From: Marchantia polymorpha subsp. ruderalis
Lineage: Eukaryota; Streptophyta; Marchantiopsida; Marchantiales; Marchantiaceae
Assembly: GCA_037833965.1 (NCBI GenBank)
Contig: AP031352.1
Coordinates: 21,990,501-22,054,500, forward strand
Reading direction: 5' to 3'
Length of the DNA: 64,000 nucleotides
Below the pieces are notes generated by a model. The model saw only the letters and a program-made list of their open reading frames with translations, had not been told where the DNA came from and ran no database searches. Position numbers and translations under genes: made by a program. Shown in pieces: positions 1 to 64,000 of the stretch (within the stretch, counting starts at the first letter, position 1; the number at the start of each line of letters is the position of its first letter).

Positions 1-1004
1 CCCACGCATCGGGGCGCTTTCGGAGAGCGTTCAGGACATTCCGTACCAATTCCTAATGGTGCGGACTGAGCCAGGATGAGAGTTTCGAAACGCTAGTCCA
101 GACAACATCGGGCCAGAAGCAGAAACACAAGCCTAGACATTTGGCAGCCACTCCTGGTAAGATTGCCATAGCAATCTATCTGTTTCATCAACAGCCTGAC
201 AGACAAACCAACAGTTCGTTAACCTCTGTGAAATATCTAACCTCTGTGAATTGATACAATAAGACAATCTAGACAATCTATGTAGTAAGTGAATGGATCC
301 ACAAATTCATAAATATGAAAATTAATCATAGTCTCACGGAGGTCACCTGATCAATCAGCCGATGATAACATGAAGCATTGATCTCTACCGTTTCTAGATC
401 TGAACTCTATCTAAAGGTTTTGAAGAATGAAACGACGCCCAAACCTTGACACTGTTACATCATTTCATGCAGTGGTGAGGATGGTTTAGAAGTGCTTTCG
501 TTACCTTTCATATCGAGTTCCATCGATCAGACAGGCACTTTCCAGAGTCCAGAGTCACGCTCAAAGACTCTCACTCTGTTCCAGTCGAGGAGTATTGTTA
601 TAGGAACAAAAAGACATGCCCACGAGCTGAAATTTAGGGGCGGTTCCCAATTAAAATCCGGTCTTGACCGGAGTTTTAATGATCTGTCATGACGTCATCT
701 ACAAGCATAACCTATGATTTTCTAGCAACTACTTCCACTTTTTCTTGCTGTAGTCCCTCTCTCTCTCTCTCCTTTCCGACCGAGTTCTTTGCAGTCGAGC
801 TGCCTTTTCCTCATTCCTTCTCAATGTAAGAAATAATTTGTATATGCCATTCTAACCCGAATGCCAACACAGGGACCGGCTCACTTGTCTACGAACAGCA
901 CGAGCCGGCTACATCCACACAGAGCAGGGAATCTCGGAATAACTTTTATGCCCTTGACTCCCTTCCGAAATACGATCAATTTTCTTTGTGGTCTGTCAAC
1001 GAGG
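1..1004. repeat. Local repeat block R1 (first copy)
   Basis: About 1 kb that recurs nearly unchanged at 1475-2510 with a 1504-1506 bp offset. It begins upstream of the window and corresponds to 25738-26771 in the next unit. Differences from R2 include a 2-bp insertion near 690/2194 and scattered substitutions. Its left end holds a 68-nt VIT1-like exon on the minus strand. It contains a hairpin at 650-680 (arms of about 14, one extra base) and a short CT run near 755-772. The small frame at 492-692 has no ATG support and no recognisable domain, so I do not call it a gene. Confidence 0.85.
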
Positions 1005-1025
1005 ATAGTATAACATAGTATATAT

Positions 1026-1474
1026 AGTATAGTCACTAATACTTGCAGTTTTCAGGTGAGCATAAAATTTTTCCGTAAAGATGTTTATGAGTATTTTCAT
1101 TTCACGATAAGTGTGATGGAACTCCCAATCAGCATTGCATCCATGTAGACCCGTGATAATTCAGATCCAAAATTGACTCACTGGCGTAGAGACTCGAATG
1201 CCTGCGGCTGCCTCAGGCGGTTCACCAGCGCGCTGAATGCGTGCGACAGGTCGAACCACTTGAGGATGGGGCAGTAGCCTACGCAGTCGGCAAAAGTGAA
1301 TCGGAAGGTGTTCCGTGGAGGCGTCATCGTCGTCGACACTGAGGTCTGCCTGGTGAACTTCAGCCAGCATCTGGTGAAGATGTTTCCTTGCTGTTGATTC
1401 CTTTCCGCCACAGAGGACTGTACCCATACATGCGCAGCTTTCTCCAGCACTCGAGTCTTGGGAGTGCGGTTAGG
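1026..1474. repeat. Local repeat block V' (VIT-side flank, deleted form)
   Basis: Matches block V at 24791-25242 closely. Relative to V, a 2-bp deletion near 1284 shifts a minus-strand frame that is open for 83 codons in V. Immediately after V' the sequence jumps to block R2, skipping the 495 bp (25243-25737) that separate V from R in the fuller copy. The skipped segment contains a VIT1-like exon and most of an intron, so V'-R2 is a deleted derivative of V-R. Confidence 0.8.
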
Positions 1475-2510
1475 TGTCTCGTACGTACCTCATCATGAAG
1501 TCGACCCACGCATCGGGGCGCTTTCGGAGAGCGTTCAGGACATTCCGTACCAATTCCTAATGGTGCGGACTGAGCCAGGATGAGAGTTTCGAAACGCTAG
1601 TCCAGACAACATCGGGCCAGAAGCAGAAACACAAGCCTAGACATTTGGCAGCCACTCCTGGTAAGATTGCCATAGCAATCTATCTGTTTCATCAACAGCC
1701 TGACAGACAAACCAACAGTTCGTTAACCTCTGTGAAATATCTAACCTCTGTGAATTGATACAATAAGACAATCTAGACAATCTATGTAGTAAGTGAATGG
1801 ATCCACAAATTCATAAATATGAAAATTAATCATAGTCTCACGGAGGTCACCTGATCAATCAGCCGATGATAACATGAAGCATTGATCTCTACCGTTTCTA
1901 GATCTGAACTCTATCTAAAGGTTTTGAAGAATGAAACGACGCCCAAACCTTGACACTGTTACATCATTTCATGCAGTGGTGAGGATGGTTTAGAAGTGCT
2001 TTCGTTACCTTTCATATCGAGTTCCATCGATCAGACAGGCACTTTCCAGAGTCCAGAGTCAAACTCATGGACTCTCACTCTGTTCCAGTCGAGGAGTATT
2101 GTTATAGGAACAAAAAGACATGCCCACGAGCTGAAATTTAGGGGCGGTTCCCAATTAAAATCCGGTCTTGACCGGAGTTTTAATGATCTGTGTCATGACG
2201 TCATCTACAAGCATAACCTATGATTTTCAAGCAACTACTTCCACTTTTTCTTGCTGTAGTCCCTCTCTCTCTCTCTCCTTTCCGACCTAGTTCTTTGCAG
2301 TCGAGCTGCCTTTTCCTCATTCCTTCTGAATATAAGAAATAATTGGTATATGCCATTCTAACCGGAATGCCAACACAGGACCCAGCTCACTTGTCTACGA
2401 ACAGCACGAGCCGGCTACATCCACACAGAGCAGGGAACCTCGGAATAACTTTGATGCCCTTGACTCCCTTCCGAAATACGATCAATTTTCTTTGTGGTCT
2501 GTCGACGAGC
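1475..2510. repeat. Local repeat block R2 (second copy)
   Basis: Second copy of R within the unit. Homology with R1 stops around 2510 (R1 around 1004), after which the two flanks differ. A third, diverged piece of the same sequence lies at 3179-3277. Confidence 0.85.
1489..1556 (-). pseudogene. VIT1: VIT1-like exon fragment, orphaned
   Basis: On the minus strand this 68-nt exon reads NALRKRPDAWVDFMMR, the cytosolic segment that precedes the FELGLEKP motif in plant vacuolar iron transporters. It is bounded by AG on the acceptor side and by GTACGT on the donor side. In this copy the partner exon has been deleted (V' directly follows), so it cannot form a transporter. The left part of another copy is at 1-52. 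Further copies are at 25752-25819, 27256-27323, 51519-51586 and 53023-53090. Confidence 0.7.
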
Positions 2511-3178
2511 ATTAAAGTTCCCCTCTCAAGCTCACTTCACATATACTGGAACCGATCCTGGATGTATAATATAACATTTTTTTCTATTCTAGGTGCCCAA
2601 CATAACTTCAATTGACGGTTTCCGCCCAAAATAGATGATAGTGTGATTGTACAGCCATTGGAGAAAAGTTTCATCTAAAAATTTCGTAGTTATCTAGAAG
2701 ATGAAAACTTATAGATAAATACGAAACTATTAGATGTAAGTTTTCTATGAATTTTCATCTTCTGATCTTCACATTATTTCACTCACCTCATGTCCAAAAA
2801 GGTCCGTCAAATCTCACACTCCAACTTCAGGACTCTGCTCTCGAGAGAACGAGTTGGAAAGACTCGACCTATGTCTGTATGAATCATATGTCACAAGACA
2901 GTCCTATGACGAACGACTGACACATGTAACTCATAGAACAGGCTCTCCGGTTAGTACTTGGCTCCCCTGTAGAAGCTGGATGCTCATTTACCTGAGACCA
3001 AGAGCTGGAATATCTTCTAAAAGGTACTCATGTTACATGCAAAAGTACGGCAGTACCCAGGAATAAGAAGAGAATGATTGTTTGTCATCCCCAGGAGAAG
3101 TCATAGAACTCGTATGTGGTAATAACACAGAGGTAGATTTCATTCACGAAACAATAACCAAGTAGTGCTGCAGTTGGT

Positions 3179-3277
3179 GGTGAGGATGGTTCATAAGTGC
3201 TTTCCTTGCCTTCCTGATCGAGTTCCATTGATTTGGAGTCACGCTCATGGACTCTCACACTGTTCCAGTCGAGGGGT
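3179..3277. repeat. Diverged partial copy of block R
   Basis: Aligns with 474-585 and 1978-2091 at roughly 80 percent by eye, with a gap of about 25 bases in the middle. Shared stretches include TGGTGAGGATGGTT and CTGTTCCAGTCGAGG. It shows that block R was already a dispersed repeat before the recent local duplication. Copies recur at 28946-29044 and 54713-54811. Confidence 0.7.
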
Positions 3278-4324
3278 CTTCGAAACACCATGAAGTGTGT
3301 ATACCTCACCATGGGAACTCCAAACTACGGAAGGATCGAGGTCGATCGAGGTCAACCCACATGGAGACGAATTACGTCATATCATGGTTCAAGACACTGA
3401 AGCTAGAACAACTCGGCCATTCACGTTAATATATCTTGTGGCAGAAGACAAGAACTGTTCAGCACTTCACGTCAGTGACAGTTGAGAAACTTACATATCC
3501 GTCGATTAGGTTCTAATAACCAGTGATAAATAAAAACAAGATCCCAGGCAGCACTTGAAGCTGCAGCACAAAATAATAACGTACAATGCTCTTGCATTCA
3601 GCTACTGGCCGTGAAATTAGAAGATATTGTGGCAGAAAAAAAAAAGGAGTACTCAGCTTTTTTTTTACTGCAAGAGTTAGTGATGACAAGTTAGGTCAAA
3701 CATCCCAGTTCCTTTGCGTTGAAAGGTCCATGGCAGGCAGACGGTTATCCAATGTCACCAAGCCCTGGTTCTTGACATTAAATCTCCGACAGAGTATTCA
3801 TCCTCAGCCAGCAAGAGTTGTTTCAGGATCGACCGAGTAAATTTTGAACAGGTGCATTACAATATGTATCAACCGACATTAACAAGCATCTGCGAAAGTT
3901 GCAGTGGGATAAAACCTTGAATAACCTTAAAACATCGCAATTCTACCGAGACCCACATTCACTCCAAAGCACATAGGTCGTAGATTAGTGCAAAAGAATC
4001 CATGAGATGAAATTCACTGTCATCCACGACTAACAGTTAGTAATCATTTTCAAAATTAAAGAAAGCCGTTCAATTCTGTACATGTCAAGTACTACGAAGC
4101 TTGCCCATATACATTTCGTTTCGCGAATCAATGCACGAATGAGAGCCTGCACAGGGAGGTTCAGAGGTGCAGAGTGAAGTTCTTCTACCGCGACCCCCAC
4201 ATACTGCATACTAAGGCAAGAGCCTACCTGAACCGGAGGTCACCGGTGCCACAACGTGTCGCCCAAATTTGAAATTCGTCACATTCGAAAACTCGGAAAG
4301 TGCAGCCAGGGTTTCAAGTTTCAA

Positions 4325-4398
4325 TGCTCGAGCACCTAAGTCAAACAAATTGTGCTCGAGAAACATCGAGTAGGACTTGTTTGACTCAAGTGCTCGAT
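4325..4398. repeat. Imperfect inverted repeat, module shared with 7310-7350
   Basis: The left arm at about 4325-4348 (tgctcgagcacctaagtc) pairs imperfectly with about 4376-4398. The left arm and the sequence before it (from about 4249, including ggtgccacaacg) resemble a second place at 7126-7350, so this looks like part of a dispersed repeat. Family unknown. Confidence 0.5.
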
Positions 4399-5100
4399 CC
4401 TCGACTGCGCACCCTACCTCTCCAGCTCCATGTGAGAAGATCACACAGATAGCTAAGAAAACCTGCAGGGATTTTCGGGAACGACCTCAAGTTTCTTGCG
4501 AAGAAGGCAAACCTATGTCGGATTGTGGTGGCAATCTGAAGCTCTTCGATTGTGATCGCATTCTGAACCTGTCGGAATTATTCATCGAGACATGATGAAA
4601 CAGACCAGTCTCTGGCGAGGATCAGGTTAGTGTTGCCCAATCTTCGTTGCCCCGGCTGCAATCCCTCGCTCAACAGATGTGTGGAGCCTTCCTGTGAAGT
4701 CTCTATATTTTGTCCCATTTTGTCAGAAATTTGCTTCTGCAGATGCGCAGACCAACAACTAGTCTCACCTGCGTCCGAGGTCAACCCAATTTAAGTCATG
4801 TGAAGGAAACAGCAGGCGATTCTAATTTTCTAGACCCCTCGAGATATGGATCAGCCCGGCGGGAAACTTCCATATTAAGTATCGACCTAATCTACTTATT
4901 GTCTCACACACAATTCATAATTCAGTGGTGGCACGCCATGCCCCTGACACGAGAGAGAGCAGTGTGGGTGACCGAATTCCATAACAGAATCTGCAACTCT
5001 CTGTCCAATTCAAACGAGCAGAGTACTATAAACCCAGTCTTCATTGTAGCCCCCAAAGTTGTATTGCAAAATTCCCAAGTACGGTTCTGACGTGACTGAT

Positions 5101-5123
5101 CTCACGCCTTTCTTAGGCGTGAG
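5101..5123. repeat. Perfect hairpin, 9-bp arms
   Basis: Arms ctcacgcct and aggcgtgag enclose a 5-base loop. Recurs at 30868-30890 and 56635-56657. In a plant nuclear context this is not a transcription terminator. Confidence 0.7.
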
Positions 5124-5272
5124 GTCTATTATAAACAACAGGGAGGGAGGGGATCTGCCGGCGATGATTAATAGTTCTGGTGATTCGCTTGGTCCGGTTC
5201 ATTAAAGAAGTCCAGATTTGGTATTCGCTAGATTAATTAATGTTTTGTTCTAGGTTTTGCAACCGTCGTCCT

Positions 5273-5302
5273 TGACGTGTCCTCTGCATGGAGGACACGT
5301 CA
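5273..5302. repeat. Perfect inverted repeat, 12-bp arms across an ATG
   Basis: tgacgtgtcctc at 5273-5284 is mirrored by gaggacacgtca at 5291-5302 with a 6-base loop. The loop contains the ATG (5288) that opens the unrecognised frame that follows. A second perfect inverted repeat with 13-bp arms lies at 5429-5461. Confidence 0.8.
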
Positions 5303-5953
5303 GATGACCTTCACATTCACATTACTGCGTATAAAGGTCGTTTGTTACTCGCCATGGATTGGAGTAATATTGAGCTGGATGGTAGGAGCTATGAAGGCAA
5401 CTTTCTCCGTCATCCAATGGTCCAGAGAATGGATGAATCTCTGATGAGGAGATTCATCCATATGGGACTTCGAGGATGGCTAACTTTTCAAAGTTTTCGG
5501 TGCAGGAGGCAGTGATTTGTTCTTCGTCTTCGACACGGGGGTTCATATCGAGATAGGAGGTGAATACGAATACCTTGAGGTGGCGAGATACTGGCCGAAA
5601 CTAGACTTGATGGTATTTTTACCGGAACTTCCTAATCAAGATCTATTGGAAAATAAATACTGGATTTTCGAGCCGGAATTCTTCTATGACCCGTGGTATG
5701 CAATTATTACCTCGCCCGGAGTAAATGCAGAGCAGGGATGGATAACACAGCAGCAGAGACATCTGTAGTAGGAGGTGGGGGATTCTCTCATAGAAGAGAG
5801 CGTAGTGGAAGTCCGAAGAGAGGTTATCGGAGTTTCAGCACAGATGAGTTCACCGAGATATATATATGTCTTTTGGACTACACCCATTTTAACAACTGGG
5901 ATGCTAAATTGGGTTCATGTCGGTCTGGATTGGGCTGGTTGTTTTTGAAATAA
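5288..5953 (+). pseudogene. Unrecognised coding remnant in three overlapping frames
   Basis: Three frames follow each other: 5288-5515 (75 codons from an ATG), about 5484-5768 (acidic and aromatic, containing FVFDTG and DPWYAI), and 5693-5953 (ending in GLGWLFLK). Their amino-acid make-up looks more protein-like than the surrounding random frames, and an AATAAA polyadenylation-type signal follows at about 5950. I do not recognise the family. It could be a frameshifted gene, exons of a spliced gene (an AG lies just before the second frame), or chance. The opening ATG sits in the loop of a perfect inverted repeat, which argues that the 5' end has been rearranged. Copies at 31055-31720 and 56822-57487. 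Confidence 0.3.
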
Positions 5954-6235
5954 AACAAAGTTTTTTTATTCTTTGTTGGCACTCTCATCTTCACTCCCTA
6001 TAAATGTTGATGCGTTATAAATAAGAATGTTCATCATAATGAGTGTTAAATAAAGTGAAACTCGATATGCAAACATCTTTCCCTTTCATTGACATTTCTA
6101 GCAAATTTGTACTCAACGGGTAGTACTTGTGATGATGGTTAGCCACAGGAATTTTTGTGTCTCAATTATTCCACAACAACGGAGATTTTTCATTTGTATC
6201 AAAGTGGAATTATGTGAAGGTTCGTGAAAGAATCT

Positions 6236-6910
6236 AACCTGGAAATGCACATGAAGGGGAATAAGGCATGAACTTGGATCTTTGTTGTACCTCACGGACT
6301 TTGTTGTGCCTCGACCATGTGCCGGTCGTGGAGTCGTAAATCAAAGATCTGCGCTCATCTGGAAGTAGAATTCATCCCAAAACCAGCTTGAAGCGCTTTG
6401 TAGATCGGTCCACGACGAAACCAACCACCACACAGTTCATCGTTCCAATCGATGCAATGACCGTAGGTATTGCATCGATTTCATGAGGTATGTTCAGGGT
6501 CAGGAATTTATCCGCAACTGCGCTATACAGAACATATTTCATCGACAAACGTTTATTGGAACACAAAGCCTCCATCGGCAGCGACTAGCAACTTGGATTC
6601 AAATGTAATGCATTCCTTGTGATCCATTGATCACTGCAGCAAAAGAAGGCCGCGCCGCCAGTAAAATAATAATAGGCAATAACATGTTTATTTCAGATAT
6701 TGTTCCGTAAATCAGGACCATCAACGATTTCCATCCACTTTTTTACAGACTGAACTACATGCTGCAAGTGTGGAAACTGGCAGACCATGATCTCTGAGAA
6801 CTTCGATCAGATATTCGCTAGGTAAAGTTTCCCAAGGATCTCCAGGTCGACTCTCTTTCGTTTCGACTACCGTTGCAGCAATCAATTCAGAGGATGATGT
6901 ATATGACGGT
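6236..6910 (-). pseudogene. F-box protein pseudogene (F-box plus F-box-associated domain)
   Basis: Read from right to left, the frame from 6910 contains DPWETLPSEYLIEVL (about 6840-6800) followed by the SVCKKW signature of an F-box. That signature needs a shift at a run of six T (6739-6744; A on the coding strand), so one base appears to have been gained there. Further down, 6575-6375 encodes an F-box-associated segment with VVDRSTKRFKLVLG. A stop follows at once, after which the same frame resumes with IYDSTTGTWSRHNKV and runs to about 6236. F-box proteins of this type bind SKP1 through the F-box and substrates through the C-terminal beta-propeller-like region. With at least two disruptions the gene is probably dead. 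A perfect 12-bp inverted repeat (6447-6480) lies within it. Confidence 0.75.
6447..6480. repeat. Perfect inverted repeat, 12-bp arms
   Basis: aatcgatgcaat at 6447-6458 and attgcatcgatt at 6469-6480, loop of 10 bases, inside the F-box-associated region of the pseudogene. Recurs at 32214-32247 and 57981-58014. Confidence 0.8.
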
Positions 6911-7125
6911 CATCTCTGCATCGGCGATCTGCAACAGCTCACAAGGGAGCAGAATAGTTACTTGCGAGTTGAGCTGGACGAAAAGTCTCACGCAGGTTGA
7001 CTCAGAAAGGCTCAAATGAGAAGAATTGCGTGCATAGACACTTGTGACTCACCTTTCAACCTAGAGAATGCTGGCTGGCTACACAAGTCTGCACGAGAGA
7101 AGAATGGAAACGATGGTCATTTAGT

Positions 7126-7350
7126 TGTCACAGGTGCCACAACGCGTCGCGCACATTTCAAATTCGTGAAATTTCAAATTTCAAATCTCACGAATTTCAA
7201 ATTTTTGTGACGCCATCAATATATTTTCTTGATTCATGGCGGCAGTGGACGCGGATAGGTGGGTGGAGTGAAATTTGAAAGGGCAGCGTCGAAATTCAAA
7301 AGGTTTCAAATTTCAATGCTCGAGCACCTGAGTGAAGCAAATTCTCGAGC
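7126..7350. repeat. AATTTCAAA-rich module related to 4249-4350
   Basis: Contains ggtgccacaacg and, about 175 bp later, tttcaatgctcgagcacct, both also found in the same order at about 4256 and 4318. Between them lies a stretch rich in TTTCAAATT with an inverted repeat (7155-7169 against 7188-7202, one mismatch). It looks like a longer copy of the same dispersed element. I cannot assign a family and see no coding capacity. Copies at 32893-33117 and 58660-58884. Confidence 0.45.
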
Positions 7351-8500
7351 ATCTTGGCACTACAGGGTGTTTGGATGACTGTTAAATAGGCTCCACTGAA
7401 CTGACCACTACTCCACTGCACTCAGATCAGTTTTCCAAGCACTCAGTTCGGGGCCAGAGTCCCGGACTTAATGCTTCACGTACTGATCTAACGCAGGAAC
7501 AAATTACAGAAAGAGCGTAGGGACTTTAGGAAAAGGCCTCACAGTACCTACGTGCTCTGCAGACATTGTACATGCTTGCAAGCCCATCTCAAATATGTGA
7601 TAGAATTCAACAGTATTACACGAACTATGTGACTTATAGACAACTACCAAGAATGTTGAACATATCTGGAATTCCGTTGCCAGATCTCCAAGCCCCCCTG
7701 TGGGTATTGTGCTCTCACAAAGTTTGCTTCAAGGCTTACTTAAACTTGGTCCGAAGCTTGCCGATCCTCGTGTACCATTTACTATTGCACGTCATTTACT
7801 ATTGTATACGTCGTTCTGCCCGATCGTAAGGATGATGTTGTCTTCGTAAAGAGCAAACAAGAGTGTTCAACGAATTGATGCACGCTGCCGGTTTCTCTGC
7901 AATCACAGACAGTTCTCGTTAAATGATTGTGTGCATCATTTGCAAACCAGATATAATAAAAATGCAGGGACGGGTTGATGCTGTGCGGAATAATAATGGA
8001 TCAGCACTAAGCAGAGATCACGACTCACAACTGACAGCTCTGTCACGCTGAATTCAGTGTAAACGGCTTTCAGGAGTCAAGCAGAGTACTATCAACGATG
8101 ACAGCCCAGGCTGAAATTAACATCAAGATGTTTAAGGCTTGGAAGTACTTCCTGACCAAGTCGCGCAGGGCCAATAACGTACCAGAAGGTAACCAATATT
8201 CTCCAATAGATTCGACAGAAGAGAAATATGCCGAAATCTGCAATCCAGCGACTTGACGGGAATCGACTTCTGTATTCACGCCAAGGTACTTGATAGAGTG
8301 AGAGGAAGTTGACGTCAAGCGCTGAATTGCAGATTCAGTTCTACGAGCAGCTTCGGGCTCCGGAGAGAGTGGGCAGAGTGGTGGGCATTATATACTCCTC
8401 CCGGGACTTCACGAGAACAAATCGACGCTGGAGTCAAAGGATTGCGAAGGCACTAGACACACTCCGAGTCCATCTTCCTCCTCAATCTACATAGAGGACC
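7351..8500. other. No recognisable gene
   Basis: Only short frames without recognisable domains (for example 7566-7829 plus and 8070-8318 minus). I see no RNA gene. Corresponding regions are 33118-34267 and 58885-60034. Confidence 0.55.
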
Positions 8501-8550
8501 TTTAGGACTGTTTGAAGTTACATCCCCTGAGTAATTTATTTTCCCCTCAT

Positions 8551-8607
8551 TAACTTATTGAACGAGTGGTTTAGTGTCCAACACGAAAGTACTCGTTGAA
8601 TAAGTTA
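8551..8607. repeat. Inverted repeat, 17-bp arms, one mismatch
   Basis: taacttattgaacgagt at 8551-8567 and its near reverse complement at 8591-8607, loop of 23 bases, at the edge of the AT-rich island. Copies at 34318-34374 and 60085-60141. Confidence 0.75.
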
Positions 8608-8742
8608 GTGAAAACTAAACAAATCTAAAACTAAAATCTTTTGTGTGTCTTTGTACTTGAATAGATCAAACAGTGTACTTCACTTGATAATGATATGGAA
8701 ATGCGGAAAATTGATTCATCATCATCGTCACCTGTGGATCCT

Positions 8743-8774
8743 AGGGTTTAGGGTTTAGTGAGGGTTTAGGGTTA
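8743..8774 (+). repeat. Short interstitial telomere-like repeat (TTTAGGG type)
   Basis: AGGGTTTAGGGTTTAG, a short interruption (tg), then AGGGTTTAGGGTT. This is the Arabidopsis-type plant telomere unit, about four repeats long. At this length it may be an ancient chromosome-end scar, a telomerase-filled break, or a telo-box. It is far too short to be a telomere. Copies at 34510-34541 and 60277-60308. Confidence 0.85.
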
Positions 8775-9492
8775 TGTGAGGCAAAATTTACTCAAGGTTC
8801 TCAAATAGCAAAGATAACTTAATAATTAAGTTTGTGATCAAATTAAATTTTTATATCCACTTTAAATATTTTTTCAACAACACTCATGACCTCATGCCCA
8901 AGATATCAATGGATTTACAGAGTCTTTCATTAAGCAATTAGATTTATCAGTAATACTGTTATTAAGGAGTTATAACTTTCCTCGTCGTCTTCGCAGTGTC
9001 ACCCTTGCTAGCTTTAAGAACTCATTACTATATTTTATTGCACCAAAAAAAATGGTTATCTAGCACACTTACTGCCATGAGCTACCTAAACATACAATAA
9101 TCATGGTTTCTAATACTCTACCATAAAAGATAAAGTAAATTATGTAAATTTGAAAATAAAATAAATTTGGATGTGATTGAGTATATATCATCAGGTAATA
9201 TGATCAAGTAGCTTAAATTCATTATTATATTTTTGTTTCAAACCAATAATTTCAATGAAAGTGTAAAATATTCTTATCAAGCTCCCTTGTCACTTAACGT
9301 GTGTGCAGTCACACATGAGTTACTTTTTTTTAAACAAAAAGTAAAAGTCAAGTTATAAATAAAGAAACAAAATTGATTTAAAATATGAATAAAAAAGACA
9401 ATAAATGTCAATGTAAAAAAATGAAAATTTTGAAAAAGTGAGTCAATGAATTATTGAGTATGAAAATTTACTTAAAAATTCCAATTGGAAGT

Positions 9493-9594
9493 TACATTTA
9501 TTGCTCTTTATCTAAAATAAGCGTGGAAAGCACATTACTAAAGAGGTGGAGGGTTAACCTATTCCTTGACAGGTTGATATTTGAATTTGAATGG
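9493..9594. repeat. 102-bp direct repeat, left copy
   Basis: Matches 10094-10195 with two mismatches. The pair brackets an F-box-associated gene fragment. Too long for a transposon target-site duplication, and it lacks LTR features (no TG...CA ends, primer site or polypurine tract seen). Confidence 0.85.
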
Positions 9595-9620
9595 AGACCA
9601 TGAAAGAACTATCAAATACC

Positions 9621-10081
9621 AGAAAGAACTATCAAATGAACTGATGGAAGTAGTATAGCTGATCCATTCCCTTCAATCGACTGGATGTTTGCAAGCTTTA
9701 TTATCTTAAATGGAAACCGACCATCTAATGTTCATTCATGCCCCTTGCAATCGAATTGCACATGAGCCCCATTCCAGTTGTGAGCAAAATCACCTTTTTT
9801 CCCCGGTTGACGAATCTAGCCAATAGAGTGAATACTTTCTGGAAACTCATGAGAGAAGTTTGAACGTAGTGATTACAGCATAACATTTATTTTTCAAAAG
9901 GTTGCCGTCGGAACTGGGATGAACCGCTTTACTTCCGACGTCGTGGGACCTTCTGAAGTAAAAACTGTCACCGTCCACTTCCCAGTAGTCATGTTGTACA
10001 CCAAAGCCCGATGCGACCAGAACAAGCTTGAAAGGAAAATGATATGATCCCCTTGCCCGTTCCAACTTCCTACGTACCTTC
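9621..10081 (-). pseudogene. F-box-associated domain fragment, copy A
   Basis: On the minus strand the end of one frame reads FPFKLVLVASG, and a shifted frame continues with SHRALVYNMTTGKWTV. Together these match the FKLV...LVYDSTTGTW core seen in the pseudogene at 6236-6910, so this is the C-terminal part of an F-box protein with a frame disruption in between. No F-box is attached. The 461-bp segment is duplicated at 16051-16511 (offset 6430 bp, five substitutions noted). It lies between two 102-bp direct repeats. A 16-bp start sequence is itself repeated just upstream (from 9602). Copies at 35388-35848 and 61155-61615. Confidence 0.6.
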
Positions 10082-10093
10082 CTTCTTACTTCC

Positions 10094-10195
10094 TACATTT
10101 ATTGCTCTTTATCTAAAATAAGCGTGGAAAGCACATTACTAAAGAGGTGGAGGGTTAACCTATTTCTTGACCGGTTGATATTTGAATTTGAATGG
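10094..10195. repeat. 102-bp direct repeat, right copy
   Basis: Second copy of 9493-9594. Its last bases form the left arm of the perfect hairpin at 10185-10227, whereas the left copy continues into different sequence. The hairpin therefore arose at or after the duplication. Confidence 0.85.
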
Positions 10196-10227
10196 TTTCG
10201 CGCGTTCCGCGCGAAACCATTCAAATT
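10185..10227. repeat. Perfect hairpin, 20-bp arms, 3-base loop
   Basis: Arms 10185-10204 and 10208-10227 are exact reverse complements with the loop ttc. The core is gtttcgcgcg facing cgcgcgaaac. The left arm overlaps the end of the 102-bp repeat, so the right arm looks like a fold-back copy. Copies at 35952-35994 and 61719-61761. Confidence 0.95.
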
Positions 10228-10464
10228 TTTGAAAAATGTGTGTTACAAGGGACTGCCCGGGCGAACACAATATAAGAGCCTTGAGGATTATGTTTCGAGC
10301 CTGTATCTGATCGTTGGATCGCATAGCGACCCTTTACCTCATAACGATCGGGATGGGGGGCATCAAAGCTTGTGTATCAGCATTCGGAGTAGATCAATTC
10401 GATTCCGAGGACCCCGGGGAGTCGAAAAGTCTGCCTCATTACTTCAGTGTGTTCTTCGGCTCCG

Positions 10465-10536
10465 TTGAATCCATATCGTGAGAGTCGAGGCGAACAGTGA
10501 CCTATTCGCCTAGACTCTCTCGTGATATGGATTCAA
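10465..10536. repeat. Inverted repeat of about 30 bp at the NPF fragment junction
   Basis: Left arm 10465-10494 and right arm 10505-10536 pair with about three mismatched or unpaired positions around a 10-base loop. The right arm includes the first coding bases of the transporter fragment (gtgatatggattcaa). The left arm is then an inverted copy of captured coding sequence, placed exactly at the edge of that fragment. Copies at 36232-36303 and 61999-62070. Confidence 0.85.
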
Positions 10537-10671
10537 GAGTACAAAGGCTGGAAATGGGGCTATTCCATATTGGCCATAGTCATGGGTGCAGCTCTTGTCC
10601 TGCTCGTAAGTGCACGGAGTTTCTTCAGGTACAGAGTTCCCATAGGCAGTCCATTCACTTCCGTGGCCAGA
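10522..10671 (+). pseudogene. NRT1/PTR (NPF) transporter fragment
   Basis: Fifty codons encode YKGWKWGYSILAIVMGAAL, a hydrophobic helix, then FFRYRVPIGSPFTSVAR. In plant NPF proton-coupled nitrate and peptide transporters, a GWGWGF helix followed by an (F/Y)YRY..P.GSP(L/F)T motif marks the end of the sixth transmembrane helix and the start of the central loop. Similarity stops at about 10671, where a dozen unrelated codons lead to a stop. Full NPF proteins are near 550-600 residues, so under a tenth is present. The left edge is a fold-back hairpin and the right edge runs into the P58IPK-like fragment about 30 bp later. Copies at 36289-36438 and 62056-62205. Confidence 0.7.
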
Positions 10672-10703
10672 GAAACCGCAAGCTCCCCACTCAAACGGAC
10701 CAG

Positions 10704-54044: not shown

Positions 54045-56821
54045 ATTAAAGTTCCCCTCTCAAGCTCACTTCACATATACTGGAACCGATCCTGGATGTA
54101 TAATATAACATTTTTTTCTATTCTAGGTGCCCAACATAACTTCAATTGACGGTTTCCGCCCAAAATAGATGATAGTGTGATTGTACAGCCATTGGAGAAA
54201 AGTTTCATCTAAAAATTTCGTAGTTATCTAGAAGATGAAAACTTATAAATAAATACGAAACTATTAGATGTAAGTTTTCTATGAATTTTCATCTTCTGAT
54301 CTTCACATTATTTCACTCACCTCATGTCCAAAAAGGTCCGTCAAATCTCACACTCCAACTTCAGGACTCTGCTCTCGAGAGAACGAGTTGGAAAGACTCG
54401 ACCTATGTCTGTATGAATCATATGTCACAAGACAGTCCTATGACGAACGACTGACACATGTAACTCATAGAACAGGCTCTCCGGTTAGTACTTGGCTCCC
54501 CTGTAGAAGCTGGATGCTCATTTACCTGAGACCAAGAGCTGGAATATCTTCTAAAAGGTACTCATGTTACATGCAAAAGTACGGCAGTACCCAGGAATAA
54601 GAAGAGAATGATTGTTTGTCATCCCCAGGAGAAGTCATAGAACTCGTATGTGGTAATAACACAGAGGTAGATTTCATTCACGAAACAATAACCAAGTAGT
54701 GCTGCAGTTGGTGGTGAGGATGGTTCATAAGTGCTTTCCTTGCCTTCCTGATCGAGTTCCATTGATTTGGAGTCACGCTCATGGACTCTCACACTGTTCC
54801 AGTCGAGGGGTCTTCGAAACACCATGAAGTGTGTATACCTCACCATGGGAACTCCAAACTACGGAAGGATCGAGGTCGATCGAGGTCAACCCACATGGAG
54901 ACGAATTACGTCATATCATGGTTCAAGACACTGAAGCTAGAACAACTCGGCCATTCACGTTAATATATCTTGTGGCAGAAGACAAGAACTGTTCAGCACT
55001 TCACGTCAGTGACAGTTGAGAAACTTACATATCCGTCGATTAGGTTCTAATAACCAGTGATAAATAAAAACAAGATCCCAGGCAGCACTTGAAGCTGCAG
55101 CACAAAATAATAACGTACAATGCTCTTGCATTCAGCTACTGGCCGTGAAATTAGAAGATATTGTGGCAGAAAAAAAAAAGGAGTACTCAGCTTTTTTTTT
55201 ACTGCAAGAGTTAGTGATGACAAGTTAGGTCAAACATCCCAGTTCCTTTGCGTTGAAAGGTCCATGGCAGGCAGACGGTTATCCAATGTCACCAAGCCCT
55301 GGTTCTTGACATTAAATCTCCGACAGAGTATTCATCCTCAGCCAGCAAGAGTTGTTTCAGGATCGACCGAGTAAATTTTGAACAGGTGCATTACAATATG
55401 TATCAACCGACATTAACAAGCATCTGCGAAAGTTGCAGTGGGATAAAACCTTGAATAACCTTAAAACATCGCAATTCTACCGAGACCCACATTCACTCCA
55501 AAGCACATAGGTCGTAGATTAGTGCAAAAGAATCCATGAGATGAAATTCACTGTCATCCACGACTAACAGTTAGTAATCATTTTCAAAATTAAAGAAAGC
55601 CGTTCAATTCTGTACATGTCAAGTACTACGAAGCTTGCCCATATACATTTCGTTTCGCGAATCAATGCACGAATGAGAGCCTGCACAGGGAGGTTCAGAG
55701 GTGCAGAGTGAAGTTCTTCTACCGCGACCCCCACATACTGCATACTAAGGCAAGAGCCTACCTGAACCGGAGGTCACCGGTGCCACAACGTGTCGCCCAA
55801 ATTTGAAATTCGTCACATTCGAAAACTCGGAAAGTGCAGCCAGGGTTTCAAGTTTCAATGCTCGAGCACCTAAGTCAAACAAATTGTGCTCGAGAAACAT
55901 CGAGTAGGACTTGTTTGACTCAAGTGCTCGATCCTCGACTGCGCACCCTACCTCTCCAGCTCCATGTGAGAAGATCACACAGATAGCTAAGAAAACCTGC
56001 AGGGATTTTCGGGAACGACCTCAAGTTTCTTGCGAAGAAGGCAAACCTATGTCGGATTGTGGTGGCAATCTGAAGCTCTTCGATTGTGATCGCATTCTGA
56101 ACCTGTCGGAATTATTCATCGAGACATGATGAAACAGACCAGTCTCTGGCGAGGATCAGGTTAGTGTTGCCCAATCTTCGTTGCCCCGGCTGCAATCCCT
56201 CGCTCAACAGATGTGTGGAGCCTTCCTGTGAAGTCTCTATATTTTGTCCCATTTTGTCAGAAATTTGCTTCTGCAGATGCGCAGACCAACAACTAGTCTC
56301 ACCTGCGTCCGAGGTCAACCCAATTTAAGTCATGTGAAGGAAACAGCAGGCGATTCTAATTTTCTAGACCCCTCGAGATATGGATCAGCCCGGCGGGAAA
56401 CTTCCATATTAAGTATCGACCTAATCTACTTATTGTCTCACACACAATTCATAATTCAGTGGTGGCACGCCATGCCCCTGACACGAGAGAGAGCAGTGTG
56501 GGTGACCGAATTCCATAACAGAATCTGCAACTCTCTGTCCAATTCAAACGAGCAGAGTACTATAAACCCAGTCTTCATTGTAGCCCCCAAAGTTGTATTG
56601 CAAAATTCCCAAGTACGGTTCTGACGTGACTGATCTCACGCCTTTCTTAGGCGTGAGGTCTATTATAAACAACAGGGAGGGAGGGGATCTGCCGGCGATG
56701 ATTAATAGTTCTGGTGATTCGCTTGGTCCGGTTCATTAAAGAAGTCCAGATTTGGTATTCGCTAGATTAATTAATGTTTTGTTCTAGGTTTTGCAACCGT
56801 CGTCCTTGACGTGTCCTCTGC

Positions 56822-57487
56822 ATGGAGGACACGTCAGATGACCTTCACATTCACATTACTGCGTATAAAGGTCGTTTGTTACTCGCCATGGATTGGAGTA
56901 ATATTGAGCTGGATGGTAGGAGCTATGAAGGCAACTTTCTCCGTCATCCAATGGTCCAGAGAATGGATGAATCTCTGATGAGGAGATTCATCCATATGGG
57001 ACTTCGAGGATGGCTAACTTTTCAAAGTTTTCGGTGCAGGAGGCAGTGATTTGTTCTTCGTCTTCGACACGGGGGTTCATATCGAGATAGGAGGTGAATA
57101 CGAATACCTTGAGGTGGCGAGATACTGGCCGAAACTAGACTTGATGGTATTTTTACCGGAACTTCCTAATCAAGATCTATTGGAAAATAAATACTGGATT
57201 TTCGAGCCGGAATTCTTCTATGACCCGTGGTATGCAATTATTACCTCGCCCGGAGTAAATGCAGAGCAGGGATGGATAACACAGCAGCAGAGACATCTGT
57301 AGTAGGAGGTGGGGGATTCTCTCATAGAAGAGAGCGTAGTGGAAGTCCGAAGAGAGGTTATCGGAGTTTCAGCACAGATGAGTTCACCGAGATATATATA
57401 TGTCTTTTGGACTACACCCATTTTAACAACTGGGATGCTAAATTGGGTTCATGTCGGTCTGGATTGGGCTGGTTGTTTTTGAAATAA
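56822..57487 (+). pseudogene. Unrecognised coding remnant, unit copy 3
   Basis: Copy of 5288-5953. Confidence 0.3.
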
Positions 57488-57769
57488 AACAAAGTTTTTT
57501 TATTCTTTGTTGGCACTCTCATCTTCACTCCCTATAAATGTTGATGCGTTATAAATAAGAATGTTCATCATAATGAGTGTTAAATAAAGTGAAACTCGAT
57601 ATGCAAACATCTTTCCCTTTCATTGACATTTCTAGCAAATTTGTACTCAACGGGTAGTACTTGTGATGATGGTTAGCCACAGGAATTTTTGTGTCTCAAT
57701 TATTCCACAACAACGGAGATTTTTCATTTGTATCAAAGTGGAATTATGTGAAGGTTCGTGAAAGAATCT

Positions 57770-58444
57770 AACCTGGAAATGCACATGAAGGGGAATAAGG
57801 CATGAACTTGGATCTTTGTTGTACCTCACGGACTTTGTTGTGCCTCGACCATGTGCCGGTCGTGGAGTCGTAAATCAAAGATCTGCGCTCATCTGGAAGT
57901 AGAATTCATCCCAAAACCAGCTTGAAGCGCTTTGTAGATCGGTCCACGACGAAACCAACCACCACACAGTTCATCGTTCCAATCGATGCAATGACCGTAG
58001 GTATTGCATCGATTTCATGAGGTATGTTCAGGGTCAGGAATTTATCCGCAACTGCGCTATACAGAACATATTTCATCGACAAACGTTTATTGGAACACAA
58101 AGCCTCCATCGGCAGCGACTAGCAACTTGGATTCAAATGTAATGCATTCCTTGTGATCCATTGATCACTGCAGCAAAAGAAGGCCGCGCCGCCAGTAAAA
58201 TAATAATAGGCAATAACATGTTTATTTCAGATATTGTTCCGTAAATCAGGACCATCAACGATTTCCATCCACTTTTTTACAGACTGAACTACATGCTGCA
58301 AGTGTGGAAACTGGCAGACCATGATCTCTGAGAACTTCGATCAGATATTCGCTAGGTAAAGTTTCCCAAGGATCTCCAGGTCGACTCTCTTTCGTTTCGA
58401 CTACCGTTGCAGCAATCAATTCAGAGGATGATGTATATGACGGT
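57770..58444 (-). pseudogene. F-box pseudogene, unit copy 3
   Basis: Copy of 6236-6910 with the same disruptions. Confidence 0.75.
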
Positions 58445-60034
58445 CATCTCTGCATCGGCGATCTGCAACAGCTCACAAGGGAGCAGAATAGTTACTTGCG
58501 AGTTGAGCTGGACGAAAAGTCTCACGCAGGTTGACTCAGAAAGGCTCAAATGAGAAGAATTGCGTGCATAGACACTTGTGACTCACCTTTCAACCTAGAG
58601 AATGCTGGCTGGCTACACAAGTCTGCACGAGAGAAGAATGGAAACGATGGTCATTTAGTTGTCACAGGTGCCACAACGCGTCGCGCACATTTCAAATTCG
58701 TGAAATTTCAAATTTCAAATCTCACGAATTTCAAATTTTTGTGACGCCATCAATATATTTTCTTGATTCATGGCGGCAGTGGACGCGGATAGGTGGGTGG
58801 AGTGAAATTTGAAAGGGCAGCGTCGAAATTCAAAAGGTTTCAAATTTCAATGCTCGAGCACCTGAGTGAAGCAAATTCTCGAGCATCTTGGCACTACAGG
58901 GTGTTTGGATGACTGTTAAATAGGCTCCACTGAACTGACCACTACTCCACTGCACTCAGATCAGTTTTCCAAGCACTCAGTTCGGGGCCAGAGTCCCGGA
59001 CTTAATGCTTCACGTACTGATCTAACGCAGGAACAAATTACAGAAAGAGCGTAGGGACTTTAGGAAAAGGCCTCACAGTACCTACGTGCTCTGCAGACAT
59101 TGTACATGCTTGCAAGCCCATCTCAAATATGTGATAGAATTCAACAGTATTACACGAACTATGTGACTTATAGACAACTACCAAGAATGTTGAACATATC
59201 TGGAATTCCGTTGCCAGATCTCCAAGCCCCCCTGTGGGTATTGTGCTCTCACAAAGTTTGCTTCAAGGCTTACTTAAACTTGGTCCGAAGCTTGCCGATC
59301 CTCGTGTACCATTTACTATTGCACGTCATTTACTATTGTATACGTCGTTCTGCCCGATCGTAAGGATGATGTTGTCTTCGTAAAGAGCAAACAAGAGTGT
59401 TCAACGAATTGATGCACGCTGCCGGTTTCTCTGCAATCACAGACAGTTCTCGTTAAATGATTGTGTGCATCATTTGCAAACCAGATATAATAAAAATGCA
59501 GGGACGGGTTGATGCTGTGCGGAATAATAATGGATCAGCACTAAGCAGAGATCACGACTCACAACTGACAGCTCTGTCACGCTGAATTCAGTGTAAACGG
59601 CTTTCAGGAGTCAAGCAGAGTACTATCAACGATGACAGCCCAGGCTGAAATTAACATCAAGATGTTTAAGGCTTGGAAGTACTTCCTGACCAAGTCGCGC
59701 AGGGCCAATAACGTACCAGAAGGTAACCAATATTCTCCAATAGATTCGACAGAAGAGAAATATGCCGAAATCTGCAATCCAGCGACTTGACGGGAATCGA
59801 CTTCTGTATTCACGCCAAGGTACTTGATAGAGTGAGAGGAAGTTGACGTCAAGCGCTGAATTGCAGATTCAGTTCTACGAGCAGCTTCGGGCTCCGGAGA
59901 GAGTGGGCAGAGTGGTGGGCATTATATACTCCTCCCGGGACTTCACGAGAACAAATCGACGCTGGAGTCAAAGGATTGCGAAGGCACTAGACACACTCCG
60001 AGTCCATCTTCCTCCTCAATCTACATAGAGGACC

Positions 60035-61024
60035 TTTAGGACTGTTTGAAGTTACATCCCCTGAGTAATTTATTTTCCCCTCATTAACTTATTGAACGAG
60101 TGGTTTAGTGTCCAACACGAAAGTACTCGTTGAATAAGTTAGTGAAAACTAAACAAATCTAAAACTAAAATCTTTTGTGTGTCTTTGTACTTGAATAGAT
60201 CAAACAGTGTACTTCACTTGATAATGATATGGAAATGCGGAAAATTGATTCATCATCATCGTCACCTGTGGATCCTAGGGTTTAGGGTTTAGTGAGGGTT
60301 TAGGGTTATGTGAGGCAAAATTTACTCAAGGTTCTCAAATAGCAAAGATAACTTAATAATTAAGTTTGTGATCAAATTAAATTTTTATATCCACTTTAAA
60401 TATTTTTTCAACAACACTCATGACCTCATGCCCAAGATATCAATGGATTTACAGAGTCTTTCATTAAGCAATTAGATTTATCAGTAATACTGTTATTAAG
60501 GAGTTATAACTTTCCTCGTCGTCTTCGCAGTGTCACCCTTGCTAGCTTTAAGAACTCATTACTATATTTTATTGCACCAAAAAAAATGGTTATCTAGCAC
60601 ACTTACTGCCATGAGCTACCTAAACATACAATAATCATGGTTTCTAATACTCTACCATAAAAGATAAAGTAAATTATGTAAATTTGAAAATAAAATAAAT
60701 TTGGATGTGATTGAGTATATATCATCAGGTAATATGATCAAGTAGCTTAAATTCATTATTATATTTTTGTTTCAAACCAATAATTTCAATGAAAGTGTAA
60801 AATATTCTTATCAAGCTCCCTTGTCACTTAACGTGTGTGCAGTCACACATGAGTTACTTTTTTTTAAACAAAAAGTAAAAGTCAAGTTATAAATAAAGAA
60901 ACAAAATTGATTTAAAATATGAATAAAAAAGACAATAAATGTCAATGTAAAAAAATGAAAATTTTGAAAAAGTGAGTCAATGAATTATTGAGTATGAAAA
61001 TTTACTTAAAAATTCCAATTGGAA
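60035..61024. other. AT-rich island, unit copy 3
   Basis: Copy of 8501-9490, with the telomere-like motif at 60277-60308. Confidence 0.6.
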
Positions 61025-61154
61025 GTTACATTTATTGCTCTTTATCTAAAATAAGCGTGGAAAGCACATTACTAAAGAGGTGGAGGGTTAACCTATTCCT
61101 TGACAGGTTGATATTTGAATTTGAATGGAGACCATGAAAGAACTATCAAATACC

Positions 61155-61615
61155 AGAAAGAACTATCAAATGAACTGATGGAAGTAGTATAGCTGATCCA
61201 TTCCCTTCAATCGACTGGATGTTTGCAAGCTTTATTATCTTAAATGGAAACCGACCATCTAATGTTCATTCATGCCCCTTGCAATCGAATTGCACATGAG
61301 CCCCATTCCAGTTGTGAGCAAAATCACCTTTTTTCCCCGGTTGACGAATCTAGCCAATAGAGTGAATACTTTCTGGAAACTCATGAGAGAAGTTTGAACG
61401 TAGTGATTACAGCATAACATTTATTTTTCAAAAGGTTGCCGTCGGAACTGGGATGAACCGCTTTACTTCCGACGTCGTGGGACCTTCTGAAGTAAAAACT
61501 GTCACCGTCCACTTCCCAGTAGTCATGTTGTACACCAAAGCCCGATGCGACCAGAACAAGCTTGAAAGGAAAATGATATGATCCCCTTGCCCGTTCCAAC
61601 TTCCTACGTACCTTC
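61155..61615 (-). pseudogene. F-box-associated fragment A, unit copy 3
   Basis: Copy of 9621-10081, between direct repeats at 61027-61128 and 61628-61729. Confidence 0.6.
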
Positions 61616-62055
61616 CTTCTTACTTCCTACATTTATTGCTCTTTATCTAAAATAAGCGTGGAAAGCACATTACTAAAGAGGTGGAGGGTTAACCTATTTC
61701 TTGACCGGTTGATATTTGAATTTGAATGGTTTCGCGCGTTCCGCGCGAAACCATTCAAATTTTTGAAAAATGTGTGTTACAAGGGACTGCCCGGGCGAAC
61801 ACAATATAAGAGCCTTGAGGATTATGTTTCGAGCCTGTATCTGATCGTTGGATCGCATAGCGACCCTTTACCTCATAACGATCGGGATGGGGGGCATCAA
61901 AGCTTGTGTATCAGCATTCGGAGTAGATCAATTCGATTCCGAGGACCCCGGGGAGTCGAAAAGTCTGCCTCATTACTTCAGTGTGTTCTTCGGCTCCGTT
62001 GAATCCATATCGTGAGAGTCGAGGCGAACAGTGACCTATTCGCCTAGACTCTCTC

Positions 62056-62205
62056 GTGATATGGATTCAAGAGTACAAAGGCTGGAAATGGGGCTATTCC
62101 ATATTGGCCATAGTCATGGGTGCAGCTCTTGTCCTGCTCGTAAGTGCACGGAGTTTCTTCAGGTACAGAGTTCCCATAGGCAGTCCATTCACTTCCGTGG
62201 CCAGA
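62056..62205 (+). pseudogene. NPF transporter fragment, unit copy 3
   Basis: Copy of 10522-10671, with the junction hairpin at 61999-62070. Confidence 0.7.
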
Positions 62206-62237
62206 GAAACCGCAAGCTCCCCACTCAAACGGACCAG

Positions 62238-64000
62238 CGTTTATTGATCGTTACCTCTCTCTTTCTTCGAGCTCTGAATGTGTACGCTTCTACTGCTGGT
62301 AAGTCAAACCGCATGATCTTGGGATTCCCATTCTCCTCTTTTATCTCCAACGTTCTCCTTGAACTACGCGTGGCTCAATCGTGAAGAGGAATTGAGCGTT
62401 GATTTTGGAATTTTCGTGGGGGCGAGTGGGTTCGCCTGATGAGGAGGAATAGGAATTTAATTTCTTTAGTTTGTAAGTTTTATTTCCCCGGACGTCCTTT
62501 CGGGTGTCGCAACTTATTCACATTGTTCAAATTTCCGATTATGGGAGCTGAGCGATATCTGTCGACATGATGTTTTGGTCAATATAGTCACGATTCCTCA
62601 TTCGTGAGGACAATTGTATCGGTAGCTGTCAGTATTTGGTATTTAGATCAGTGATCATAATGATCGCGAAGCCTAAAGACTGCTGGAGCACAGTTTTCGT
62701 GTTCATGTGTTGCCAGAATTTTCTCACCTCTCATACACAGCTCGTTGTACCACTTCAAGTTCCGGGCTTTACAGCAAGATTAGTTCGATGCCGAGAACTT
62801 AAGTTGCAGCTTGGCTCAGAGCTTTTTCTCAACGCTTGTGTCCAAAGGTGTACTCCAGAATGCTTCACTTGAAGATGATAATCATCTTGGAGAGAAAGAG
62901 GTCAACCACAGAGTTCATTGAATGCCAACCGTGCCGACCTTTTACCTCTTTCCCTATGCAAGGGTTGTGAGCAAAGTAAAGGATGCACTTTGCAATATTT
63001 CAATATGATTAGGTCTTGGACTCATGTATATTCCCACCCCGGATTTCGTCACGTGGCTGTGTCAGAGGTCTGCTCAGCTTACTGTCTCTCAAGATATTAT
63101 ACGCTGAACACTTACGTGATCAGAGTGCCGGAATCAGTGAGGGTGGCAATCCAGTAAACTTGATCAACCCATCGAAGGAATGCGGCCCCTCAAAGCGAGA
63201 TTTCTAGCGGTTCTGCTGAGTTTGGCCGAAGATATGCTTCTCTGATTTCAAGTTATAGATTGTGCAAGTTTGTTAAAAGAGCCCTCCTATCGTCGTTCTT
63301 CGTTGTATCCTAGATATAACCATCTCATTTAGAGAAATGGATACTTATTTATCTACCGGGTAATGTTTTTGGTGTCTCGGAACCAATTTGGACTAATTGA
63401 TTCATCATTCAATCACGGCCTTCACCTTGTCGACTCATATCTGCCAGCCCCTTGATGATAAGTAGGCGCCGACTGTGAGGGGTAACCTGATCAGAGAGCT
63501 GAAGCATTTTGTCCTTGGTGACAATGTATCTGGTGCAGTAAGCTTGCAACAACTACGGAAATGAGCTTGATTCTAACCATAACATTGCTAACCTTAGTAT
63601 TGCTTGCCAGCTAAGTTTTTACCTGTTCCTCTGAAGGAAGTTCAAGTAGGGCTTTTCCTTATAGAACCAACTTTGCAACATGAATTTCTGTCCCGAGTGT
63701 GGTGAAGGGTTCAAATTCGAATAGCATGGTGGGCGGAGCTATCACGTAGCAAATTAAGTCTTCTTTAGTTCGCTACTGCAGATCGCTAAGTGTGTAGAGA
63801 TGAGTAGTGGGATGAGACTTATACTGCTTGGGAAGAGTAAACTCGTTATCCGCTCGTGGAAAGAGCTGCATTGAGGTCTTCAAGTTTAGTCGATTTTGCG
63901 TTAGGGCAATTCATTACAGGTTTCTATGTGAGGTACTTTTAATACTGGAAGGGGTTTGACGTAGGAAACACTTTACCTTGCATGTGGTTGACATGGAAGA
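62238..64000 (+). pseudogene. P58IPK: P58IPK-like fragment, first exon and part of intron, unit copy 3
   Basis: The signal-peptide-like exon piece at 62238-62298 and the first part of the long intron; the window ends before the TPR exons. Confidence 0.55.

Follow-up and report, generated by a model that had tools for sequence, protein, structure and literature searches.

We examined a stretch of 64,000 nucleotides from Marchantia polymorpha subsp. ruderalis, hereafter called the window, which corresponds to positions 21990501-22054500 of contig AP031352.1 (here C3) in the assembly GCA_037833965.1 (241,466,482 bp in 9 contigs). The window consists of head-to-tail copies of a 25,767-bp unit that forms part of a longer tandem array, and the sole intact gene found in the unit is predicted to encode a receptor-like protein (RLP) with leucine-rich repeats (LRRs). 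Positions within the unit are given below as phases, where phase 1 is window position 1. When the window was shifted against itself by 25,767 bp, a single mismatch was obtained in 38,233 compared positions (2714 versus 28481) and no indels, and chance cannot account for a self-match of such extent. The unit, its orientation and the single base difference reported in a preliminary description of the window were thereby confirmed. The window comprises one full copy, here called c1 (phase 1-25767; window 1-25767, C3:21990501-22016267), a second copy, c2 (window 25768-51534), which differs from c1 only at phase 2714, and the first 48% of a third copy, c3 (window 51535-64000), all on the forward strand. 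The rest of c3 extends beyond the window and contains a diverged patch (phase 19754-19954) in its right part.

Both ends of the array had been expected outside the window, and they were now placed at C3:21981258 and C3:22194523, within 230 kb of C3 sequence that was read around the array and contained no N. The full array spans 213,266 bp, or 8.28 units as assembled. Its left end is at phase 16525, with clean homology from phase 16532, and its right end at phase 25145. These two ends bound a segment of 8.6 kb (16532-25145, forward strand), here called the RLP block, which is present in 9 copies, whereas the intervening 17.2-kb segment, here called the filler, is present in 8, giving the layout RLP block-(filler-RLP block)x8. 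Copy c0 is partial, copies c1 to c7 run through the full unit (with c5 being about 1.5 kb short), and copy c8 lacks 622 bp. At an E-value of 1e-5, neither flank matched the unit, the other flank, or the unit of an array on contig C5 described below. A gene-bearing block is thus repeated head to tail at one locus between flanks that do not resemble the unit, which is the structure of a tandem gene amplification.

The main frame of the RLP gene (20184-23306, reverse strand) encodes 1040 amino acids with an LRRNT_2 domain, many LRRs, and a C-terminal membrane segment followed by a short tail without a kinase. The Pfam scan, which covered 20 open stretches (15 in this unit and 5 in the unit on C5, with shorter frames outside the scan), identified PF08263 and PF00560 and no kinase family in this frame, and the membrane segment and the tail were read by eye. 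With an LRRNT, predicted extracellular LRRs, a single putative membrane segment, and no kinase, the frame has the features by which LRR receptor-like proteins are defined. A likely first exon with a signal-peptide-like sequence was located at 23644-23775 on the reverse strand, where a GTGAG donor would be followed by an intron leading to the main exon. The best matches among solved structures were plant LRR receptors, such as GSO1 and FLS2, and the receptor-like protein 7drb ranked lower. The frame is open in all 9 copies and contains two amino acid variants relative to c0 (frame numbering), namely G952D in c3 and c5 and D102G in c5. The preliminary statement that reading frames are identical among copies therefore holds within the window and does not extend to the whole array.

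Only 2 of the 11 genome matches to the RLP frame were located outside the array copies, and these were relatives with 64% to 65% identity. Similarly, a single match among 10 for the segment 16520-20183 was found outside the array (71% over 133 bp). The segment 16520-23306 appears to have no other close copy in the genome and weak matches only, a statement that excludes 23307-24783. The part of the RLP block at 24784-25145 is a piece of a VIT gene relic, described below, with relatives elsewhere.

The filler pieces were found to be colinear with a single locus on contig C5 (C5:22351484-22366367). The homology begins at phase 25107, corresponding to C5:22351484, and covers the filler start (25107-25767, forward strand), with 99.9% identity over 717 bp (25107-25823). 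It continues through phases 1-16095 (forward strand), where the compared segments 1-56, 1466-3000, 7944-14052, 14156-15529, and 16020-16095 are in the same order as in C5:22352106-22366367. Identity values to the C5 locus were 98% for both 1466-3000 and 7944-9581, 99% for 9582-14052, 86% to 97% for pieces of a GC-rich element here called X, and 96% over 76 bp for 16020-16095. The filler segment 3001-7943 was compared by its spacing, which agrees (4,747 bp versus 4,944 bp); the C5 locus was not listed among the best 10 of 264 candidates scored in the corresponding genome search. The short segment 14053-14155 is missing from the C5 stretch that was read, and the C5 locus carries an extra X piece at this place. 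The unit is thus composite, combining a receptor-gene block of local origin with DNA that is related to the C5 locus. Neither this nor the recurrence of its parts in other arrays of the genome could be seen when the preliminary description was made.

The edges of the filler coincide with the ends of the array, independently of how the RLP block was defined. The similarity to C5 starts at phase 25107, which is 38 bp before the right end of the array (25145), and a second copy of the filler segment 9620-10086, located at 16050-16515 on the forward strand (98.7% identity, spacing 6430 bp), stops 17 bp short of the left end (16532). Where the block meets the filler, the right end of the array and the C5 locus share an identical stretch of 39 bp (25107-25145). 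This stretch belongs to a relic of a VIT1-family gene, the recognizable part of which (25297-25416, reverse strand) covers profile positions 119-159 only and is surrounded by broken frames; VIT was rejected as the amplified gene of the C3 array on these grounds. At the other junction, the C5 homology extends to 16095 and the second copy of 9620-10086 starts at 16050, so that the first 46 bp of this copy (16050-16095) fall within the C5-shared stretch, an overlap of about 46 bp according to the BLAST boundaries. Switches in such short homologies would fit a replication-based duplication with templated insertion.

To describe the variation among the copies, we left aside the c3 patch and the c0 edge and counted 31 variants that each affect a single column. 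Copies c1 to c8 differed pairwise at 1 to 17 of about 24,000 columns and c0 differed from the others at 2 to 10 of about 9,000, with at least 99.89% identity outside one patch and one lost repeat. The loss is that of about 1.5 kb in c5, corresponding to one copy of an internal direct repeat with a spacing of 1504 bp (1-2512, forward strand), in which 1-1006 and 1505-2512 are 98% identical. The patch in c3 (phase 19754-19954, about 200 bp, C3:22061740-22061985) shows many substitutions and a 17-bp gain in length, and is 87% identical to the other eight copies. No genomic donor of the patch was found, as all 9 genome matches were the array copies themselves, and it probably came from another haplotype, since no other place in the genome holds its version. 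The near-perfect uniformity described previously is thus correct for the window, with its single mismatch, and too strong for the array as a whole, which contains the 31 variants, the patch in c3, and the loss in c5.

The most similar neighbors were c1 and c2 (1 difference) and c7 and c8 (3 differences), and the clearest mosaics, c3 and c4, are located between them. Copy c3 is of the left type at phases 2714 and 7069 and of the right type at 19056, 23361, and 23435, whereas c4 is of the right type at 7069 and of the left type at 23361 and 23435. When the 1504-bp repeat and the c3 patch are disregarded, the alignment has 34 biallelic columns, i.e., the 31 variants plus three at the c0 edge, and 16 of the 34 were informative. 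These 16 columns form 120 pairs, of which 32 showed all four gametes; site 8864 alone is involved in 12 of the 32. Because of the mosaic copies and the four-gamete site pairs, we conclude that the copies exchange sequence by unequal crossover or gene conversion, two of the processes that the preliminary description had listed as candidates and that are now supported. Most filler pieces differ from the C5 locus by 1% to 2% (0.1% in the 717-bp piece), and the divergence among the copies is below this. The homogenization or amplification therefore looks younger than the transfer.

Several segments of the filler have relatives elsewhere in the genome. The segment 7944-9581 (forward strand), which would represent the upstream region of a VIT gene, is 98% identical to C5:22358391, 93% to 94% identical to an array at C5:18.07-18.12 Mb, and 83% to 91% identical to an array on contig C9. 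Two fragments of a POT/NPF transporter (PF00854, E-values 9.9e-13 and 2.1e-8) are located at 10311-10710 on the forward strand, and exons containing TPRs at 13228-14143 on the same strand, the latter with a relative outside the arrays at C5:9391476-9395170 (96%). Element X (14180-16034, forward strand) consists of GC-rich palindromes and three 272-bp repeats. It also occurs in two arrays on C5 (at 18 Mb and at 27.5-28.2 Mb), close to C5:22.3645 Mb, and, in truncated form, at C3:8.548 Mb. The stop codon of the TPR frame is immediately followed by GC-rich palindromes (14144-14330), a 51-bp part of which (14180-14230) shows 94% conservation in the C5 array.

The genome searches with the filler pieces started from an array, and the best 40 of 67, 40 of 87, 10 of 264, 40 of 75, and 40 of 52 candidates were scored. 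Among the matches listed, filler pieces recur in three further tandem arrays, with 3, 31, and 14 units, respectively. The array at C5:18.07-18.12 Mb contains 3 units of about 23.5 kb, in which the filler pieces are 90% to 97% identical, with more than 4 kb at 93% to 97%; it also contains a VIT exon that is interrupted by a TGA in frame. The array at C5:27.48-28.19 Mb contains 31 units, as inferred from 31 X cores and 31 VIT exon matches with a spacing of mostly 16-22 kb, and its X elements are 85% to 86% identical; the X core was absent between about 27.81 and 27.89 Mb. The single unit that was read from this array contains a frame for a peroxidase (PF00141) and an ETX_MTX2 frame (PF03318) adjoining a weak ricin-B-lectin-like one. 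The array at C9:12.65-12.96 Mb contains 14 units of about 23.7 kb each, as counted by the VIT exon, with filler pieces at 83% to 91% identity. It includes a 99-bp minisatellite, the number of which differs from unit to unit, probably accounting for some of the variation in unit length. Outside the arrays, filler pieces were identified at C5:22.35, 16.95, 17.09, and 23.90 Mb and at C3:8.548 Mb.

A comparison of the C3 unit with the unit at C5:27.48-28.19 Mb yielded only four aligned parts, namely X, the VIT relic, and two stretches of 97 bp and 85 bp, the latter of the X type, and the two units were rejected as whole homologs accordingly. In a scan with a 66-nucleotide X core that allowed no indels, 39 of 40 matches were located inside two arrays and the remaining one was a solo copy with 3 mismatches. 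This result, together with a separate genome search in which the best 40 of 87 candidates were scored, suggested that X is restricted to arrays. The idea was refuted by the X-like pieces at C5:22.3645 Mb, which had escaped the core scan and were not among the scored candidates of the search.

Taken together, these data identify the C3 array as a real, bounded, and recombining gene amplification of a known kind, the origin of which is unusually legible. With somewhat more than even confidence, we interpret it as a tandem amplification on a plant autosome that arose by a duplication with templated insertion and was followed by unequal crossover and conversion. According to this scenario, a single RLP locus on C3 would have been duplicated by a replication- or repair-based event, during which about 15 kb from the locus at C5:22.35-22.37 Mb, or from a close relative of it, would have been copied into the breakpoint. 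The template switches may have occurred in short shared stretches, i.e., in the 39 bp of the VIT relic on one side and in about 46 bp plus the 467-bp second copy of the filler's own piece on the other. Once two 8.6-kb blocks were present in tandem, unequal crossover and gene conversion expanded them to eight or nine copies in this assembly and keep these alike, a step that is supported by the exchange patterns described above. The receptor gene is probably what the array maintains, because no other intact gene was found in the unit, and the array would then be a receptor locus that is probably variable in copy number.

Several observations weigh against this scenario. Open frames aside, purifying selection on the receptor gene is not indicated by variant density: the RLP frame contains 2 of the 31 variant positions, so that variants are no rarer there than in the remainder of the unit (p = 0.42). 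The founding event is deduced from its end product, as neither reads, a second accession, nor an allele with an empty site was at hand. Because it lacks a counterpart of 14053-14155 and carries an extra X piece, the C5 locus appears to be a sister of the filler's source rather than the unchanged source, and the direction of copying, from C5 to C3, would follow from parsimony. The second junction depends on a BLAST boundary, and the agreement of the filler segment 3001-7943 with C5 on its spacing. The 717-bp piece at 99.9% identity fits poorly, and either the transfer may be young or the C5 locus may still be exchanging sequence with the array. Finally, reads shorter than the exact 41,557-bp repeat across c1 to c3 cannot fix how many of these left-type copies exist or in which order they stand.

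The last point bears on the possibility that an assembler or polisher multiplied one or two real units. The assembled array contains exact repeats of 41,557, 16,280, and 15,790 bp, the longest of which spans c1 to c3, and c1 and c2 differ by one base, as a duplication during assembly or polishing would predict. Wrong copy numbers can also occur in this species: a HiFi assembly of M. polymorpha contained unresolved tandem regions, one of them with a more than 5-fold excess in read depth, although the error in that case was an under-count (PMC13078153, which like the other papers cited here was consulted in part). However, copies c3 to c8 are told apart by structured variants, an indel, the lost repeat, and the diverged patch. 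Moreover, the flanks do not resemble the unit, no N was present in the 230 kb, and a copy-paste error would not be expected to yield four-gamete mosaics. An array produced purely by assembly or polishing, as the preliminary description had considered, is therefore not supported, and we regard it as improbable. The array is real in kind, but its copy number is insecure because the exact 41,557-bp repeat outlasts ordinary HiFi reads, and 8.28 units is the figure of the assembly. The earlier suggestion of a sex-chromosome amplicon is also unlikely, since C3 is 32.6 Mb long and the chrU of M. polymorpha 5.6 Mb according to the parts of the source consulted (PMC13078153), which is an argument by size and not a direct test.

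Alternatively, in line with the rolling-circle reinsertion that the preliminary description had listed, an extrachromosomal circle containing the RLP block and the filler could have been reintegrated at the RLP locus by homologous recombination in one or more rounds. If such a circle recombined with the native RLP locus, the outcome would be the same structure as seen here, flank-RLP-(filler-RLP)n-flank. Yet no circle-specific feature was found, the likeness of c1 to c2 and of c7 to c8 with the mosaics c3 and c4 between them is explained by chromosomal crossover without a circle, and uniting DNA from two chromosomes in a circle would require the same two junctions, and we consider this route unlikely. 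Three contigs carry a total of four tandem arrays with filler pieces, which might instead point to the unit as a mobile element, or an integrated plasmid or viral genome, that inserts as head-to-tail concatemers. Against this, no replication, integrase, transposase, or capsid families were detected in the 20 stretches scanned with Pfam (shorter frames being unscanned), and the content consists of ordinary plant genes and fragments (LRR, POT/NPF, TPR, VIT, and peroxidase). Moreover, the RLP frame has no close copy outside its locus and the C3 and C5 units share parts only, which makes an element of this type highly implausible. A duplication with templated insertion, followed by unequal crossover and conversion, remains the scenario that we favor.

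A more speculative proposal concerns the family of segments shared by the arrays, i.e., the VIT relic, the upstream region, the POT-TPR segment, and X. It is conceivable, but doubtful at present, that this family serves as a seed for amplification, such that its landing beside a gene gives rise to arrays with units of about 20-26 kb. The cases that might be accounted for in this manner, again tentatively, are the receptor gene on C3, the peroxidase and lectin-like genes on C5, and the array on C9. If the proposal were correct, the family would be a "core duplicon" of a plant genome, from which gene arrays that are polymorphic between accessions arise again and again.

For comparison with previously described arrays, the contigs were related to chromosomes through EF1. 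A 20-nucleotide primer for the EF1 gene of M. polymorpha (PMC9701658) matches the genome exactly at a single site, C4:27497869. EF1-alpha is presumably located on chromosome 3, which would make C4 chromosome 3, C5 chromosome 4, C3 chromosome 2, and C9 chromosome 8. A highly repetitive region with tandem peroxidases and ion transporters has been described at about 27.7 Mb on chromosome 4 of strain Tak-2, where it is absent from Tak-1, and a glutamine-synthetase array on chromosome 3 of Tak-1 (PMC13078153). The array at C5:27.48-28.19 Mb fits the Tak-2 array in place and content (peroxidase, VIT), as far as the consulted parts of that paper describe it (PMC13078153), and we take the genome to be that of Tak-2 or a similar accession. 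Like the C3 array, the Tak-2 and Tak-1 arrays are long, gene-bearing tandem arrays of M. polymorpha that are hard to assemble, and they are polymorphic between accessions; unlike them, the C3 array bears an LRR receptor-like protein, and the text consulted mentions neither an array on chromosome 2 nor a sequence link between arrays (PMC13078153). No receptor array on chromosome 2 of Marchantia was described in the literature searched, which did not extend to supplements and the pangenome literature and is thus no proof of novelty.

Among other plants, the closest parallel in structure is the EPSPS locus of Kochia scoparia, where every tandem repeat of a gene block is associated with a 16-kb segment that originated in trans, and where unequal crossover has been proposed and a 7-bp identity noted at one junction (PMC6808082, in the parts consulted). 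The C3 array likewise has a segment from another chromosome between its gene blocks, with the C5 pieces in order and a direction of copying that is deduced. The inserted element in Kochia, however, is called mobile and is located at both outer borders (PMC6808082), whereas the C3 array is bordered by the ends of the RLP block, and its filler looks like a copied genomic segment; a selective agent is not known for C3. The Rhg1 locus of soybean resembles the C3 array in unit size (a 31.2-kb segment; PMC11631408) and in its defense-type gene content, and rhg1-b, with 9 to 10 tandem repeats, is similar in copy number (PMC10152651). Rhg1 is a four-gene block with a tested role in resistance, whereas the function of the C3 receptor is predicted, and no segment from another chromosome is mentioned for Rhg1 in the consulted parts of these sources. 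The human macrosatellites D4Z4 and RNU2 share the form of the array, i.e., head-to-tail repeats on the kilobase scale, but not its sequence, and no membership is claimed.

Plant immunity commonly draws on the copy number of receptor genes as its raw material, and the C3 junctions suggest, at base resolution, how a single receptor locus may have become an array that incorporates DNA from another chromosome. The presence of the same filler family in three more arrays provides a testable idea of why some stretches of this genome amplify and others do not. The C3 array also serves as a warning that the copy number in such assemblies may be wrong even where the array is real.

A few additional features were recorded for the unit and its surroundings. 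No Rfam family was found in the unit at the gathering score and no tRNA by ARAGORN, and an array of rDNA, snRNA, or tRNA genes was rejected for this reason. The left flank (C3:21970001-21972000) contains open frames that by eye resemble a Ty1-copia reverse transcriptase. The length of C3 is exactly 32,565,000 bp, which is strangely round for an assembled chromosome.

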